A stretch of 64,000 nt of DNA from positions 124,001 through 188,000 of the forward strand of contig NZ_CAKKLP010000001.1 of assembly GCF_918698085.1 (NCBI RefSeq), read 5' to 3'. Source of the DNA: Chryseobacterium sp. Bi04 (GTDB lineage: Bacteria; Bacteroidota; Bacteroidia; Flavobacteriales; Weeksellaceae). The position numbers were made by a program, and so were the translations under genes. Every line of letters starts with the position of its first letter. Position 1 is the first letter of the stretch. The notes beneath the pieces were generated by a model. It searched no databases and was not told the origin of the DNA. It saw nothing but the letters and a program-made list of their open reading frames with translations. Shown here in pieces: positions 37,267 through 40,765 of this stretch.

Positions 37267-37446
37267 TTAATCATTCTTTCCCGGCAATCTGGTTTTAGGC
37301 ATTTTACTTTTAATCAATTTCTCTTTGTCTTCTATCATTTCAACCATACTTCTAAGCGCATAGTTCAGAGCTTCCATACATTCAGAAAGATTGTATGGAA
37401 AATAGTCTAACGCTTCAAAATAATATTTACTTTTAGTTAAGGTCAT
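37267..37446 (-). CDS. small protein overlapping prfH, 59 aa
   Basis: Starts with an ATG inside the last codons of prfH (14-base overlap) and ends in TAA, so it looks translationally coupled to prfH. The sequence begins MTLTKSKYYFEALDYF and continues as charged amphipathic helices (EALNYALRSMVEMIEDKEKL) with a basic Pro-containing tail (KMPKTRLPGKND). The first half reads like the first helical pair of a TPR-type repeat; it may be a shortened relative of a longer helical protein. Function unknown; its place at the end of an RtcB-PrfH operon suggests a role there, but this is inference only. Confidence 0.6.
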   Translation of the reverse strand: MTLTKSKYYFEALDYFPYNLSECMEALNYALRSMVEMIEDKEKLIKSKMPKTRLPGKND

Positions 37447-38131
37447 TTTTATAATTTTTCAGTTCATTTTTTAGAGTATTTCTTTCTTTTTTGAAAGAGG
37501 TATCCTTATAATTTTTCTTAAAGTCTATCCCGGAAAATATGCGGACAGGATTTCCGCGCTGTACCTGAAGATGCTGAGTCCATGTCTCCTGTACTCTTCT
37601 TTCCAGCTCCTGAATATACACTCCCATTACCTTTTCTTTTAACCTAAGGACTGACCGTTTTTTATTTTCCAGCTGTGAACGTGAATCCTGTACAAATACG
37701 GCTTGTCCTGTCGGCATATGGGTAGCACGAACAGCTGTATTCACTTTGTTTACATTCTGACCGCCACTTCCCTGGCTTCTTGTTGTCTGAAACTGGATAT
37801 CTTTTTCATTGAAGTCAATTTTTCCAAGGTTTTCCAGTTCAAAAATTCCAATAAACCAATTGCTTCTTTTATGCAGTTTTCTGAATGTACTTTTCCCCAT
37901 CCAGCAGATACTTCCTAACCAGCCTTTCAAAAAATTATTAATTTCTTTTCCTTTTAAGAGCAGGGTTACCGATTTTAGGGTCAGGTTTTCATCACCGTTT
38001 TCACGATGAATAATTTCATAGTCTATTGTATGTTGCTTTATTTCTTCAAGAAAGATTTTCAATACTTTAGCAACTACCCACTGGCATTCTAAAGGTCCTC
38101 TTCCTGAAGTTATTTGTATTAATTTTTCCAT
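37433..38131 (-). CDS. prfH: peptide chain release factor-like protein PrfH
   Basis: A 232-aa release-factor homologue lacking the usual codon-recognition domain 2 of RF1/RF2. The GGQ peptidyl-hydrolysis motif is in [12 protein letters not shown] (residues about 121-132). The middle region with GSICWMGKSTFRKLHKRSNWF is the PrfH hallmark (Trp/Cys-containing RNA-facing segment). Family knowledge: PrfH releases nascent peptides from ribosomes whose decoding-centre 16S rRNA has been cut, so that the partner RtcB ligase can repair it. It follows rtcB on the same strand, with a 78-base gap holding a long palindrome. Confidence 0.93.
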   Translation of the reverse strand: MEKLIQITSGRGPLECQWVVAKVLKIFLEEIKQHTIDYEIIHRENGDENLTLKSVTLLLKGKEINNFLKGWLGSICWMGKSTFRKLHKRSNWFIGIFELENLGKIDFNEKDIQFQTTRSQGSGGQNVNKVNTAVRATHMPTGQAVFVQDSRSQLENKKRSVLRLKEKVMGVYIQELERRVQETWTQHLQVQRGNPVRIFSGIDFKKNYKDTSFKKERNTLKNELKNYKNDLN

Positions 38132-38147
38132 TGTTTATTTATTGAAA

Positions 38148-38205
38148 GCTGTTGGTTTACAGCTAACAGTCAAGTTTTCTCAACTGTCAGCTATAAACCA
38201 TAAGC
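38148..38205. repeat. palindromic intergenic element between rtcB and prfH
   Basis: Imperfect 23-base arms GCTGTTGGTTTACAGCTAAC... and ...AGCTATAAACCATAAGC around about 12 bases. It would form a long hairpin in the rtcB-prfH mRNA. The arm core AGCTGACAG is shared with the element at 18749-18883, suggesting a dispersed repeat family. Confidence 0.55.
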
Positions 38206-38209
38206 TTAA

Positions 38210-39601
38210 TTATCGGTCCATTCTCACGATTCTTGGTTGGAATGTTCCTAAAATATCCACCAGTTCACTTTGTGCGTTCATCACCTCATTGATGTCTTTA
38301 TAAGCCATTGGTGCTTCTTCAGCATTACCACCCATTAAAGTAACATTCTTCAGTTTCAGTTCCTTTTTAATGTCATTCTGGGTGAAAAGACTTCTGCATG
38401 CTCCTCTGGAGTGGGCTCTTCCTGCCCCGTGTGATGCAGAATTCAGGGCATCCGGGTTTCCTTTTCCACGAACAATAAATCCTTTTGCCGTCATAGACCC
38501 GGGAATCATTCCCAGTTCATTTTCATTGGCTGGAGTTGCCCCTTTTCTGTGAACAATCATTTCTTTACCATGATGAATTTCCTTCCAGGCAAAGTTGTGA
38601 TGGTTTTCAATTCTGGCTTTTACTCTTCCGCCTACAGCTTTCACCAATCTCCGGTGAATATCATCATGACAGGCCGAGGCGTAGTCTCCTGCGAGATTCA
38701 TGGCGGTCCAGTATTCTAATCCAAGATGGGTACTAAGGTCCAGCCAGGCAAATTGTTGGGCTTCTTTTGGCAGCGGACACTGTTCCACAGCCACTCTTGA
38801 ATAATACTGGGCAATCTCTGCCCCTAACCCTCTGGAACCACTATGAGAGAGGATTCCCAGATATTTTCCTTTTGGTAATCCGATCTGTTCATCCTCCGCT
38901 GTAATTTCCACTTCTCCAAATTCCACGAAATGATTTCCTCCCCCTGAGGATCCCATTTGTTTAATGGCTTTACCCTTTAACCTTCTAAGAATTGGAATAT
39001 GATCAAAGGTATCTCTATCAAAGATTTCGTGGTCTATATGGGATTTATGGGTTTCATACATTCCAAATTTTGTGTGTTCTGCAAGAGCCTTTTCATATTT
39101 ATCTCGTGCTCCATTAAGATATGACACCGGTGTATCCAAAATACTAAGGCTCATCCTACAGCCGATATCCATCCCAACTCCATAAGGAATTACTGCGTTT
39201 TCTACCGCAAGAACTCCCCCGATCGGAAGACCATAGCCACTGTGTGCATCGGGCATTAAAGCTCCCTGAACTGATACCGGCAGTTTTAAAGCAGTATACA
39301 GCTGGTTTTTTGCTTCTTCCGAAATATTGCTCCCGAAGATCTGAAAAGAAGCGCGCTGGGCATTCAGCATTCTTTTTTCTGTTTTTTTGGATGAAAGCAG
39401 GCTCTCTGCAATCTGTCCAAAGGTCAGATCTTTTTCAAAATTTTCCGGATGTACCAGTATTTCCTTTAAAAGAGATTTCACATGGTGGATATTTTTGGTG
39501 GCAAAATTTCTTTTCATGACTTCCAAAGCCACATTGACACTTTGATTATTTGGATAGCCCAGTTTTAATATATCTTTTCCTTTTAGTTTTAAATTTCCCA
39601 T
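38210..39601 (-). CDS. rtcB: RtcB-family RNA ligase
   Basis: Mn2+- and GTP-dependent ligase that joins a 3'-phosphate (or 2',3'-cyclic phosphate) RNA end to a 5'-OH. Catalytic features seen: metal-ligand Cys in GVGMDIGCRMS (Cys148), GGGNHF (His224), SHSGSRG (about 252-258), and the His that becomes guanylylated in NSASHGAGR (His391). At 463 aa it is longer than E. coli RtcB (408), with extra sequence at the N-terminus. It starts ten bases after the unknown 251-aa gene and precedes prfH, so it corresponds to the PrfH-linked RtcB (RtcB2-like) type, associated with repair of cleaved 16S rRNA. Confidence 0.95.
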   Translation of the reverse strand: MGNLKLKGKDILKLGYPNNQSVNVALEVMKRNFATKNIHHVKSLLKEILVHPENFEKDLTFGQIAESLLSSKKTEKRMLNAQRASFQIFGSNISEEAKNQLYTALKLPVSVQGALMPDAHSGYGLPIGGVLAVENAVIPYGVGMDIGCRMSLSILDTPVSYLNGARDKYEKALAEHTKFGMYETHKSHIDHEIFDRDTFDHIPILRRLKGKAIKQMGSSGGGNHFVEFGEVEITAEDEQIGLPKGKYLGILSHSGSRGLGAEIAQYYSRVAVEQCPLPKEAQQFAWLDLSTHLGLEYWTAMNLAGDYASACHDDIHRRLVKAVGGRVKARIENHHNFAWKEIHHGKEMIVHRKGATPANENELGMIPGSMTAKGFIVRGKGNPDALNSASHGAGRAHSRGACRSLFTQNDIKKELKLKNVTLMGGNAEEAPMAYKDINEVMNAQSELVDILGTFQPRIVRMDR

Positions 39602-39611
39602 TGTTTTTGTT

Positions 39612-40367
39612 TTAAATAATAGCAGGACCTATATCGTCCATAAAGCTTTCTGCAATCTCTGTTGCAGACATTCTGCAGGCAATATATTTCCTGCTTTTGA
39701 TAAGATGTAAGTCTTCTTTTTTCGTTCTCCATGAATTTGATTTGCCATAGATTGTTTTCTGGACAATTCCGGCAATTTTATGATGCTTTACATAAGATTC
39801 CAACTCCGCATATTCTTTTTCCAGTTCAAAGTCTATAGGCTTATAGTGGGTAATCATATGGGGTCTTACTCTTAAGATAAACCTCCATGGCTCGATAAAT
39901 TCGTAGTACACTTCGTTGCATTTCCGATAAGGACAATATTCTTCGTATTTCAGAAAATATTGCCGCTCTTGTACAGTGAGTCCAAATTTTGGATCATTCC
40001 AGGACCAGGAAGAAACACGTTTAAGCTTCTGCTCTTTTTCTACATATATTCTTTTACCGAATTTTCTCTTCTTCTTAAGAAACTGCCGGCTTTCGGAAAA
40101 CATAGAGGTATTGATTTTCTTCAAAATCCCTTCAAAAAGCTCTCCGTCTTTGGATCTCATTACATCCTCCCTAACGACAAAGAATCTTATAAATCCTCTT
40201 TGATAAGGATTCTCTAGAGGAATCCATGGAATATTTATTTTTATACTCCAAAGCTCTTCACTACGTTTATACTTTTTTCTTATCTGCTTTATTACATCTT
40301 TTCTAACTGTTCTTTTCCTGCTTCTGGCGCTTCTAAGGCGAGAAAACAGAAGGTTATCATTTTCCAT
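39612..40367 (-). CDS. uncharacterised basic protein upstream of rtcB, 251 aa
   Basis: Not recognised. A soluble protein without signal peptide or membrane segment, very rich in Lys/Arg (N-terminus LFSRLRSARSRKRTVRKDV) and in Tyr/Trp/Phe. Visible marks are a CPYRKC pair in the middle and a C-terminal SRKYIACRMSATEIAES segment. The composition suits an RNA- or ribosome-binding protein. It is the first gene of the operon; the rtcB start is ten bases beyond its stop. Its consistent position next to an rRNA-repair ligase makes it a candidate sensor, substrate adaptor or end-processing factor, but nothing in the sequence proves this. Confidence 0.7.
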   Translation of the reverse strand: MENDNLLFSRLRSARSRKRTVRKDVIKQIRKKYKRSEELWSIKINIPWIPLENPYQRGFIRFFVVREDVMRSKDGELFEGILKKINTSMFSESRQFLKKKRKFGKRIYVEKEQKLKRVSSWSWNDPKFGLTVQERQYFLKYEEYCPYRKCNEVYYEFIEPWRFILRVRPHMITHYKPIDFELEKEYAELESYVKHHKIAGIVQKTIYGKSNSWRTKKEDLHLIKSRKYIACRMSATEIAESFMDDIGPAII

Positions 40368-40564
40368 TTTAAGACATCAGATATCTGATACAAAATCAAA
40401 GATGATGACTTGTACTGTATCTGTTTTTTCAACTTAAATTTTAGTTGAATGATTTTATGATAATAAACATCATGAATCTGAATCATAGAGATTCTTTCAT
40501 TCTGTCCTTAATGACACTGAAAAGATTTCGGGGAAACGTGAGTTTGAAATATTGCGCAATAAAA

Positions 40565-40591
40565 AACCCGAAATCTTTACGACTTCGGGTT
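40565..40591 (-). terminator. intrinsic terminator/attenuator after the 25-codon leader ORF
   Basis: Perfect eight-base arms AACCCGAA / TTCGGGTT around an 11-base loop, followed on the minus strand by six T. It sits between the leader ORF and the RtcB operon, about 200 bases before the first operon gene. Confidence 0.75.
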
Positions 40592-40615
40592 CTGATATTT
40601 CATTGTACTGTTATT

Positions 40616-40693
40616 CTATGAGTATACCAAACCGCGAAGCCTTACCACGATAAGTGGCAATCCAAGTGTAGAATTCTGTTTTGTTCTGAACAT
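40616..40693 (-). CDS. possible 25-codon leader peptide
   Basis: ATG...TAG reading frame of 25 codons, MFRTKQNSTLGLPLIVVRLRG and four more residues, rich in Leu and Val with three Arg. A well-formed promoter lies 43 bases upstream and a terminator begins 25 bases after its stop, so the transcript would be about 170 bases unless read through. Within the ORF the RNA can also form a six-base hairpin (TGCCAC / GTGGTA), and CGAAGC before the ATG can pair with GCTTCG inside it. It may therefore be an attenuator leader, an independent small protein, or a structured small RNA. Confidence 0.45.
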   Translation of the reverse strand: MFRTKQNSTLGLPLIVVRLRGLVYS

Positions 40694-40735
40694 TGCTTCG
40701 TTGTTTTTTTAATGGTTAAACTTGATTTTCAGGTG

Positions 40736-40765
40736 CAAATATATTAATTTTTCTGAATATTCAAT
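40736..40765 (-). promoter_or_regulatory. candidate promoter for the leader/RtcB operon
   Basis: On the minus strand ATTG (40762-40765) is followed after 18 bases by TATATTTG (40736-40743), matching the Bacteroidota -33/-7 pattern. Transcription would start near 40729. Confidence 0.55.

Follow-up and report, generated by a model that had tools for sequence, protein, structure and literature searches.

A conserved leader with attenuator-like pairings upstream of an RtcB-PrfH ribosome repair operon in Chryseobacterium

We analyzed a 64,000-nucleotide stretch of the Chryseobacterium sp. Bi04 genome (hereafter the window), in which four minus-strand genes lie in the order X (encoding a 251-aa protein), rtcB, prfH and a 59-aa open reading frame (ORF), as given by the window's ORF list. 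We interpret the locus as an operon that rescues and repairs ribosomes through RtcB and PrfH, in which the accessory gene X is intact and a TPR accessory has decayed. Upstream of X lies a conserved leader containing a short ORF and an intrinsic terminator, and our overall explanation, which we consider probable, is that the repair operon is under the control of a leader-peptide transcription attenuator. The first-pass annotation of this DNA had placed the system at 37267-40367, an interval that holds all four genes; the operon's leader (40558-40764) falls outside it. That annotation had also anticipated an added sensor or regulator in the operon, a part best filled by an element that it had not listed, the leader upstream of X.

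The leader and its association with PrfH

The conserved leader RNA region, delimited by a covariance model (R1) and made up of the leader ORF and the intrinsic terminator, occupies 40558-40706 of the minus strand. Ahead of it on the same strand, 40736-40764 reads as a promoter consisting of TTG (40764-40762) and TATATTTG (40743-40736); TTG with TAnnTTTG is what we take to be the promoter type of Bacteroidota. The leader ORF (40616-40693, minus strand) has 25 codons, MFRTKQNSTLGLPLIVVRLRGLVYS, and the stop codon TAG. We extracted 138 leaders by pattern, 50 of which differ by more than about 7%, and the frame is open in 138/138, with 25 codons in 111 leaders, 26 in 15, 27 in nine, 28 in one and 19 in two. 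In 132 of the 138, TAnnTTTG lies no more than 90 nt ahead of the leader start, compared with 3.5% of shuffled upstream stretches; 108 of the 132 also have a correctly spaced TTG. The layout that recurs is CGAAG, or a close variant, immediately ahead of the ATG, the ORF, and then, 15-46 nt past the stop, a terminator stem of the form CCCGAAG...TTCGGG (variants exist) followed by a U-run.

This leader is tied to the operon across genomes. In each of the family's (Weeksellaceae) 61 prfH loci it precedes X or, in loci lacking X, rtcB, and a pattern scan located it in 78 of the 79 other, X-encoding loci, the remaining one (L182) having a GTG start; the two sets share some genomes and so are not independent. 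Searches with R1, built from 50 leaders and run with stricter filters under which weak matches may be lost, gave 63 strong matches (E ≤5.5e-9) among 148 family genomes: the 61 genomes with PrfH and two without, the next match standing at 3.1e-5. The two PrfH-free genomes hold operon remnants, leader-rtcB-TPR in G051 (L222) and leader-TPR in G006 (L223), and a weaker match in G041 (L228, 2.2e-4) is also 5' of a TPR gene. Five other weak matches that we inspected (L224-L227, L229) are ends of unrelated genes. Among 196 genomes of the order (Flavobacteriales), R1 at E ≤5.5e-6 picked out 39, exactly those with PrfH over the cut-off, and none of the 157 lacking it (next best match, 9.3e-5). In the 16 of these that are not family members, the leader always sits 5' of prfH and on its strand. 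The leader accompanies the operon in at least four families and in many upstream contexts. A further remnant, which keeps leader and X, was seen in Capnocytophaga catalasegens (L168).

A DNA search of the leader's own genome returned it as the sole full match, and we rejected a repeated element, the other matches being 21-32 nt long (E ≥0.17). An Rfam scan produced no match at the leader, and a plasmid search no leader match. We are highly confident that the element is a conserved regulatory leader.

Competing pairings and a proposed switch

Four segments of the leader, all read on the minus strand, account for its predicted folding. Segment 1, the protector (ACGAAGC, 40695-40701), lies directly 5' of the leader start codon and pairs with segment 2 (GGCUUCGCGGUUUGG, 40627-40641), which is within the end of the leader ORF and can pair alternatively with segment 3 (AACCCGAAGUC, 40581-40591). 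Segment 4 with the U-run (GAUUUCGGGUUUUUU, 40561-40575) forms the intrinsic terminator together with segment 3. We examined these helices in an alignment of 50 leaders (A2), with slid alignments as pairing controls. The 1:2 and 3:4 helices together are paired in 96.4% of cells (slid controls, 28-60%), the 3:4 terminator helix in 98.8%, with the U-run present, and the 2:3 helix in 90.3% (slid controls, 25.5-65.1%). Compensatory changes are seen at column pair 12:84 of the 1:2 helix (C-G in 29 and A-U in 14 of 50) and 137:162 of the 3:4 helix (A-U in 34 and G-C in 14 of 50), as well as at column pairs 84:145 (G-U in 30, U-A in 11) and 93:137 (U-A in 30, C-G in 5). Paired-cell counts and the covariation score exceed those of shuffles (0/500), and counts of pairs with double-sided changes and of extra pair types do not. 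In a diverse set of 22 leaders, drawn in part from other families, the outer five 2:3 pairs score 4.55 with their own partner and 4.03 with a swapped one, and none of 20000 permutations reaches 4.55. The comparison of leaders thereby reveals competing pairings of the initiation region with the ORF end (1:2), of segment 2 with segment 3, and of the terminator (3:4). Two features by which an attenuator is recognized are present, an intrinsic terminator before the first gene and a mutually exclusive antiterminator with compensatory changes; the open frame, with its weak but significant codon constraint, is a candidate for a third, the translated ORF.

Computed folding indicates how the pairings could succeed one another. 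Before segment 3 is made, the mean probability P of the 1:2 helix is 0.95 and exceeds 0.5 in 48 of the 50 leaders; in the full leader, 3:4 has a mean of 0.96. With a ribosome placed at codons 1-14, P(2:3) is 0.86-0.96. It falls to 0.55 at codon 15, 0.29 at codon 16 and 0.10 at codon 17, is about 0 at codons 18-24 and is 0.16 at codon 25, a drop that is expected because the ribosome footprint covers segment 2.

We propose that the leader is a transcription attenuator read by translation, for which we think the odds quite good. A healthy ribosome would reach the end of the leader ORF and cover segment 2, so that segments 3 and 4 pair and transcription ends before the operon. A ribosome that initiates and then stalls within about the first 14 codons would cover segment 1 and leave segment 2 free; with segment 2 free, 2:3 would form, no terminator would arise and the operon would be transcribed. 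A cut in the decoding centre would be expected to make ribosomes stall early, and damage would in this way induce its own repair, with PrfH freeing the stuck peptide, RtcB resealing the 16S rRNA, and the strongly basic X most likely binding rRNA and helping RtcB to dock on the damaged 30S subunit. That damage sensing is the main use of the leader is plausible at a little under even confidence, and the link to decoding-centre cuts is one that we infer.

Several considerations weigh against this proposal. The attenuator is predicted from sequence comparison and computed folding, and the permutation and shuffle tests take no account of shared descent. Many of the leaders scored with R1, including most from the family and a few from Flavobacterium, had trained the model; four matches from more distant genera (G212, G159, G170, G235) were outside the training set. 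The folding calculation presupposes that a ribosome covering segment 2 blocks 2:3, and free RNA up to segment 3 favours 2:3 (mean 0.92, compared with 0.03 for 1:2), which means that a switch without a ribosome could also read ON, and only kinetics, by which 1:2 forms first, argues otherwise. Selection on the peptide is weak: 65 synonymous and 111 nonsynonymous changes were counted where the expected synonymous share is 0.265 (p 0.0015), and this test taken by itself gives modest support for the leader ORF. Finally, the leader has nothing that would single out decoding-centre damage among stalls, and any early stall should do.

Two alternative accounts of the leader can be set against attenuation by early ribosome stalling. 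It seems unlikely that the leader is a nascent-peptide or amino-acid attenuator that senses one drug, metabolite or charged tRNA. Some amino-acid conservation in the peptide within Chryseobacterium would fit such a device, and leader-peptide attenuation has been proposed for amino-acid operons of Flavobacterium psychrophilum (PMC9723704); yet the leader has no run of any one control codon, its peptide is almost wholly different between genera except for LR/RG around segment 2, its stop codons vary (TAG in 120, TAA in 15 and TGA in three of 138), and the operon contains no amino-acid genes. Very unlikely, in our estimate, is a non-regulatory origin of the leader ORF and terminator as a separate small gene or the terminator of an upstream gene: stems resembling CCCGAAG-TTCGGG do end ordinary genes, as at the five weak R1 matches described above, but the leader stays with the operon across families and upstream contexts, has its own promoter, and contains a 2:3 helix that covaries and excludes the terminator, something for which a plain terminator has no need.

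One further feature of the terminator was noted. The string GAAGTCGTA lies in the window terminator (40575-40586) and occurs in 69 of the 138 leaders, and GAAGTCGTAA in 25 of the 138. GAAGTCGTA is identical to the cleavage site in the 16S rRNA decoding centre, and the proposal makes no use of this. We dropped the likeness as a candidate signal: it occurs only with a Chryseobacterium-like segment 3, pairing fixes five of the bases, and it was noticed post hoc.

Operon genes and accessory proteins

The four minus-strand ORFs of the first-pass annotation are borne out, as are the GGQ position in PrfH and a 14-base overlap between prfH and the 59-aa ORF. The rtcB gene (38210-39601, 463 aa) encodes an RNA ligase that matches PF01139 at 4.8e-79 and retains intact DIGCRM, GGGNHF, SHSGSRG, ENHHNF and SHGAGR, which we take to be the active-site motifs; the protein is 99% identical in C. 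rhizosphaerae. It scores 136.5 bits on TIGR03073, the model for the E. coli-type PrfH-linked RtcB, under the cut-off of 271.8, and we assign it to a subfamily other than that of the E. coli PrfH-linked enzyme. The prfH gene (37433-38131) encodes release factor H, a 232-aa protein with GGQ starting at residue 123, and its 203 bits against a TIGR03072 cut-off of 166.65 make it a full member of that family. The genes had been described as tightly packed; the four-gene order stands, and the spacing is not tight throughout, since rtcB, on the same strand, ends 78 bp upstream of prfH. This gap (38132-38209) contains an imperfect inverted repeat, is the site of a nucleotidyltransferase (NTase) gene in other strains, and includes a weak Lnt RNA match (E 0.86) from the Rfam scan.

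X (39612-40367), a 251-aa accessory protein characterized here by its context, its relatives and an AlphaFold2 model, is basic, as the first-pass annotation had stated, with an isoelectric point (pI) of 9.8; 37 relatives (alignment A3) all have a pI of 9.7-10.4 and share 23 invariant positions, mostly basic, aromatic, Pro and Gly. The model has a mean predicted local distance difference test (pLDDT) score of 83.4 and a helix spanning residues 14-44, and its counterparts in C. rhizosphaerae and C. viscerum share 89% identity with it. Co-occurrence bears out its link to rtcB-prfH. In the survey of 148 family genomes, X is present in 13 and PrfH over the cut-off in 61; all 13 X genes adjoin rtcB, upstream of prfH and on the same strand, with X before rtcB in 12 loci and after it in one (L055). 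The probability that all 13 would fall within the 61 PrfH genomes by chance is 4.3e-6, a figure that ignores descent. A scan of 84,980 species genomes for X relatives gave 172 encoding stretches, the best of which yielded 79 loci from named genomes, spanning Chryseobacterium, Empedobacter, Algoriella, Capnocytophaga, Paenimyroides, Flavobacterium and unplaced Flavobacteriales bins. X has RtcB nearby in 78 of these loci and PrfH in 77, along with a TPR gene in 70, an NTase gene in 54 and a Zn-ribbon gene in 15. Nor is X confined to this lineage, as eight of 30 PrfH loci from two further families of the class have it, one of them as a partial match. In one locus (L182, 5938-8112) X and RtcB share one open frame of 724 codons, a single case that is possibly an assembly error. 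Further small accessory genes, of about 162 and about 206 aa, each occur in four of the 79 loci, the former between X and rtcB (L142, L146, L148, L149) and the latter before prfH (L142, L149, L152, L157); the copies of both in L142 gave no convincing Pfam match.

Other observations on X weigh against our overall explanation. Forty-eight of the 61 family prfH loci lack X, which indicates that it is dispensable; C. catalasegens (L168) carries X with neither RtcB nor PrfH nearby and no PrfH over the cut-off genome-wide; and X has no detectable family or homologue in Pfam/TIGR-type family and profile searches. A further exception is Flavobacterium araucananum (L178), where X is accompanied by RtcB and PrfH is missing. 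The best profile match was to translin at E 0.16, Foldseek returned no PDB match at E ≤0.001 (best E 1.4), and the best VIA-align hit, Z 5.5 over 66 residues, is in the tool's stated noise range. No known fold was thus found for the modelled X, from which newness of the fold does not follow. We regard X, on these patterns of occurrence, as a real but optional accessory of the pair. Gene order, charge and the one natural X-RtcB fusion suggest that it could be an rRNA- or RtcB-binding helper, an assignment that we make tentatively. The idea of the first-pass annotation that X is instead a damage sensor or end-processing enzyme looks improbable: X is kept beside rtcB and matches no known fold, so that an activity of a new sort is possible, but it has no recognisable catalytic motif or family, its invariant positions are mostly basic, aromatic, Pro and Gly, and many prfH loci manage without it.

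The 59-aa ORF (37267-37446, minus strand), which had been put forward as a second partner, is better read as a relic of the TPR gene that is usually 3' of prfH. In protein alignments it corresponds to the N-terminal 31 and roughly the C-terminal 28 residues of a TPR protein of about 170 aa, joined in frame by an internal deletion of about 109 codons; residues 32-140 of a 170-aa relative (L046) are missing from it and the TPR region is incomplete, which rules it out as a conserved partner. The TPR gene or its remains are 3' of prfH in 50 of the 61 family loci, the window relic included, and the gene has been lost in C. rhizosphaerae (L104).

Other leaders, known systems and implications

Outside Flavobacteriales, some PrfH operons are preceded by leader ORFs of other kinds. 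Twenty-seven of the 30 PrfH loci from the two other families of the class, together with an Aureibacter plasmid locus, carry a different, CATATC[AG][TC]CC-like motif near a short ORF; the search pattern was devised once these loci had been inspected, some of the ORFs have 4-5 codons, and the motif lies past the stop in several. Of the remaining three, L264 has the Flavobacteriales type, L261 has part of it but no terminator, and L281 is truncated at a contig end. This second, unrelated leader type stands 5' of the first operon gene (L242, L243, L255-L260, L262, L263, L265-L280, L282, L244), its short ORF often reading MTE...ISPLSLIA and several loci having GGGTATATCC...GGACGAA further down; it had no Rfam match in the 17 loci scanned.

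In E. coli, a 15-codon ORF (MTNPLSMTLCRPFQD, one with MK) stands 5' of rtcB2-prfH on a plasmid, in ATCC 25922 and in five other chromosomes, and Proteus mirabilis has the same layout with the leader ORF MTTTNMNTLCGQSQK (L245, 2670-2790; L249, E. coli ATCC 25922, 1265-1370; L248, Proteus, 2735-2850). The strong Shine-Dalgarno stretch before the leader ORF, CUGCAAGGAG, can pair with the ORF end, CUCUUUGCAG, and the ORF end can also pair downstream, with GUCUGC in E. coli and UGUCCGC in Proteus, a matched change. The seven E. coli sequences are nearly identical, so that the parallel is at most suggestive. No such leader was seen in the one Skermanella upstream stretch inspected. We offer, as a speculative generalization, that RtcB-PrfH operons may widely be under leader ORFs by which broken ribosomes report themselves, through a transcription attenuator in Flavobacteriales and through unrelated leaders with other pairings in E. 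coli, Proteus and other Bacteroidota.

Attenuators of the trp type, found in amino-acid operons, combine a protector, an antiterminator and a terminator with a translated leader. The window leader appears to have the same parts, but it precedes a ribosome-repair operon, lacks a control-codon run and has its protector at its own initiation region. The toiL upstream ORF of E. coli topAI-yjhQ (PMC12121999) reports several kinds of ribosome stalling, as is proposed for the leader here; it differs in acting by occlusion of the ribosome-binding site and Rho-dependent termination and in controlling a toxin-antitoxin pair, whereas the window leader has an intrinsic terminator. According to PMC9223846, colicin E3 cleaves the RNA between A1493 and G1494, and RtcB2-PrfH gives protection; repair of decoding-centre-cut ribosomes is known from E. 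coli alone. The window shares with that RtcB2-PrfH module of ATCC 25922 the pair and its gene order; unlike it, the window carries X and the TPR relic, and its RtcB belongs to a different subfamily and shares 29% identity with the E. coli plasmid copy. The words "leader" and "upstream" have no occurrences in the searched text of PMC9223846, which mentions no leader.

The accessory genes are less novel. In its passages on RFH-RtcB neighbours, Burroughs & Aravind 2019 (PMC6514570) lists TPR proteins, a Pol-beta NTase, a Zn-ribbon protein whose C-terminus is charged and, as a fourth class, a protein that has highly charged helical regions and lacks detectable homologues. X fits the description of this fourth class in charge, in its helix at residues 14-44, in its lack of family matches and in context, and likely, as judged against that passage, though unproven, belongs to it. 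The first-pass annotation had treated X and the 59-aa ORF as lying outside the described pair; X is truly linked, and accessories of the X and TPR kind have largely been in print since 2019, so that the association of X is probably not new. The same passages describe no leader ORF or attenuator, and a limited literature search, with most subscription papers beyond reach, found no description of the leader. By these comparisons, the leader appears to be the new element, and the accessory partners to be largely known.

These results bear on how cells sense cut ribosomes and switch on RtcB-PrfH. The two partners are re-read here as one optional helper and one relic, and a conserved attenuator 5' of the operon would offer a direct and cheap handle on the induction of ribosome repair. 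If the leader ORF of E. coli ATCC 25922 is alike, the idea could be tested in a strain whose repair module has a demonstrated role. In its wide version, the proposal would, if true, describe attenuators that sense ribosome damage, as opposed to drugs or amino acids.

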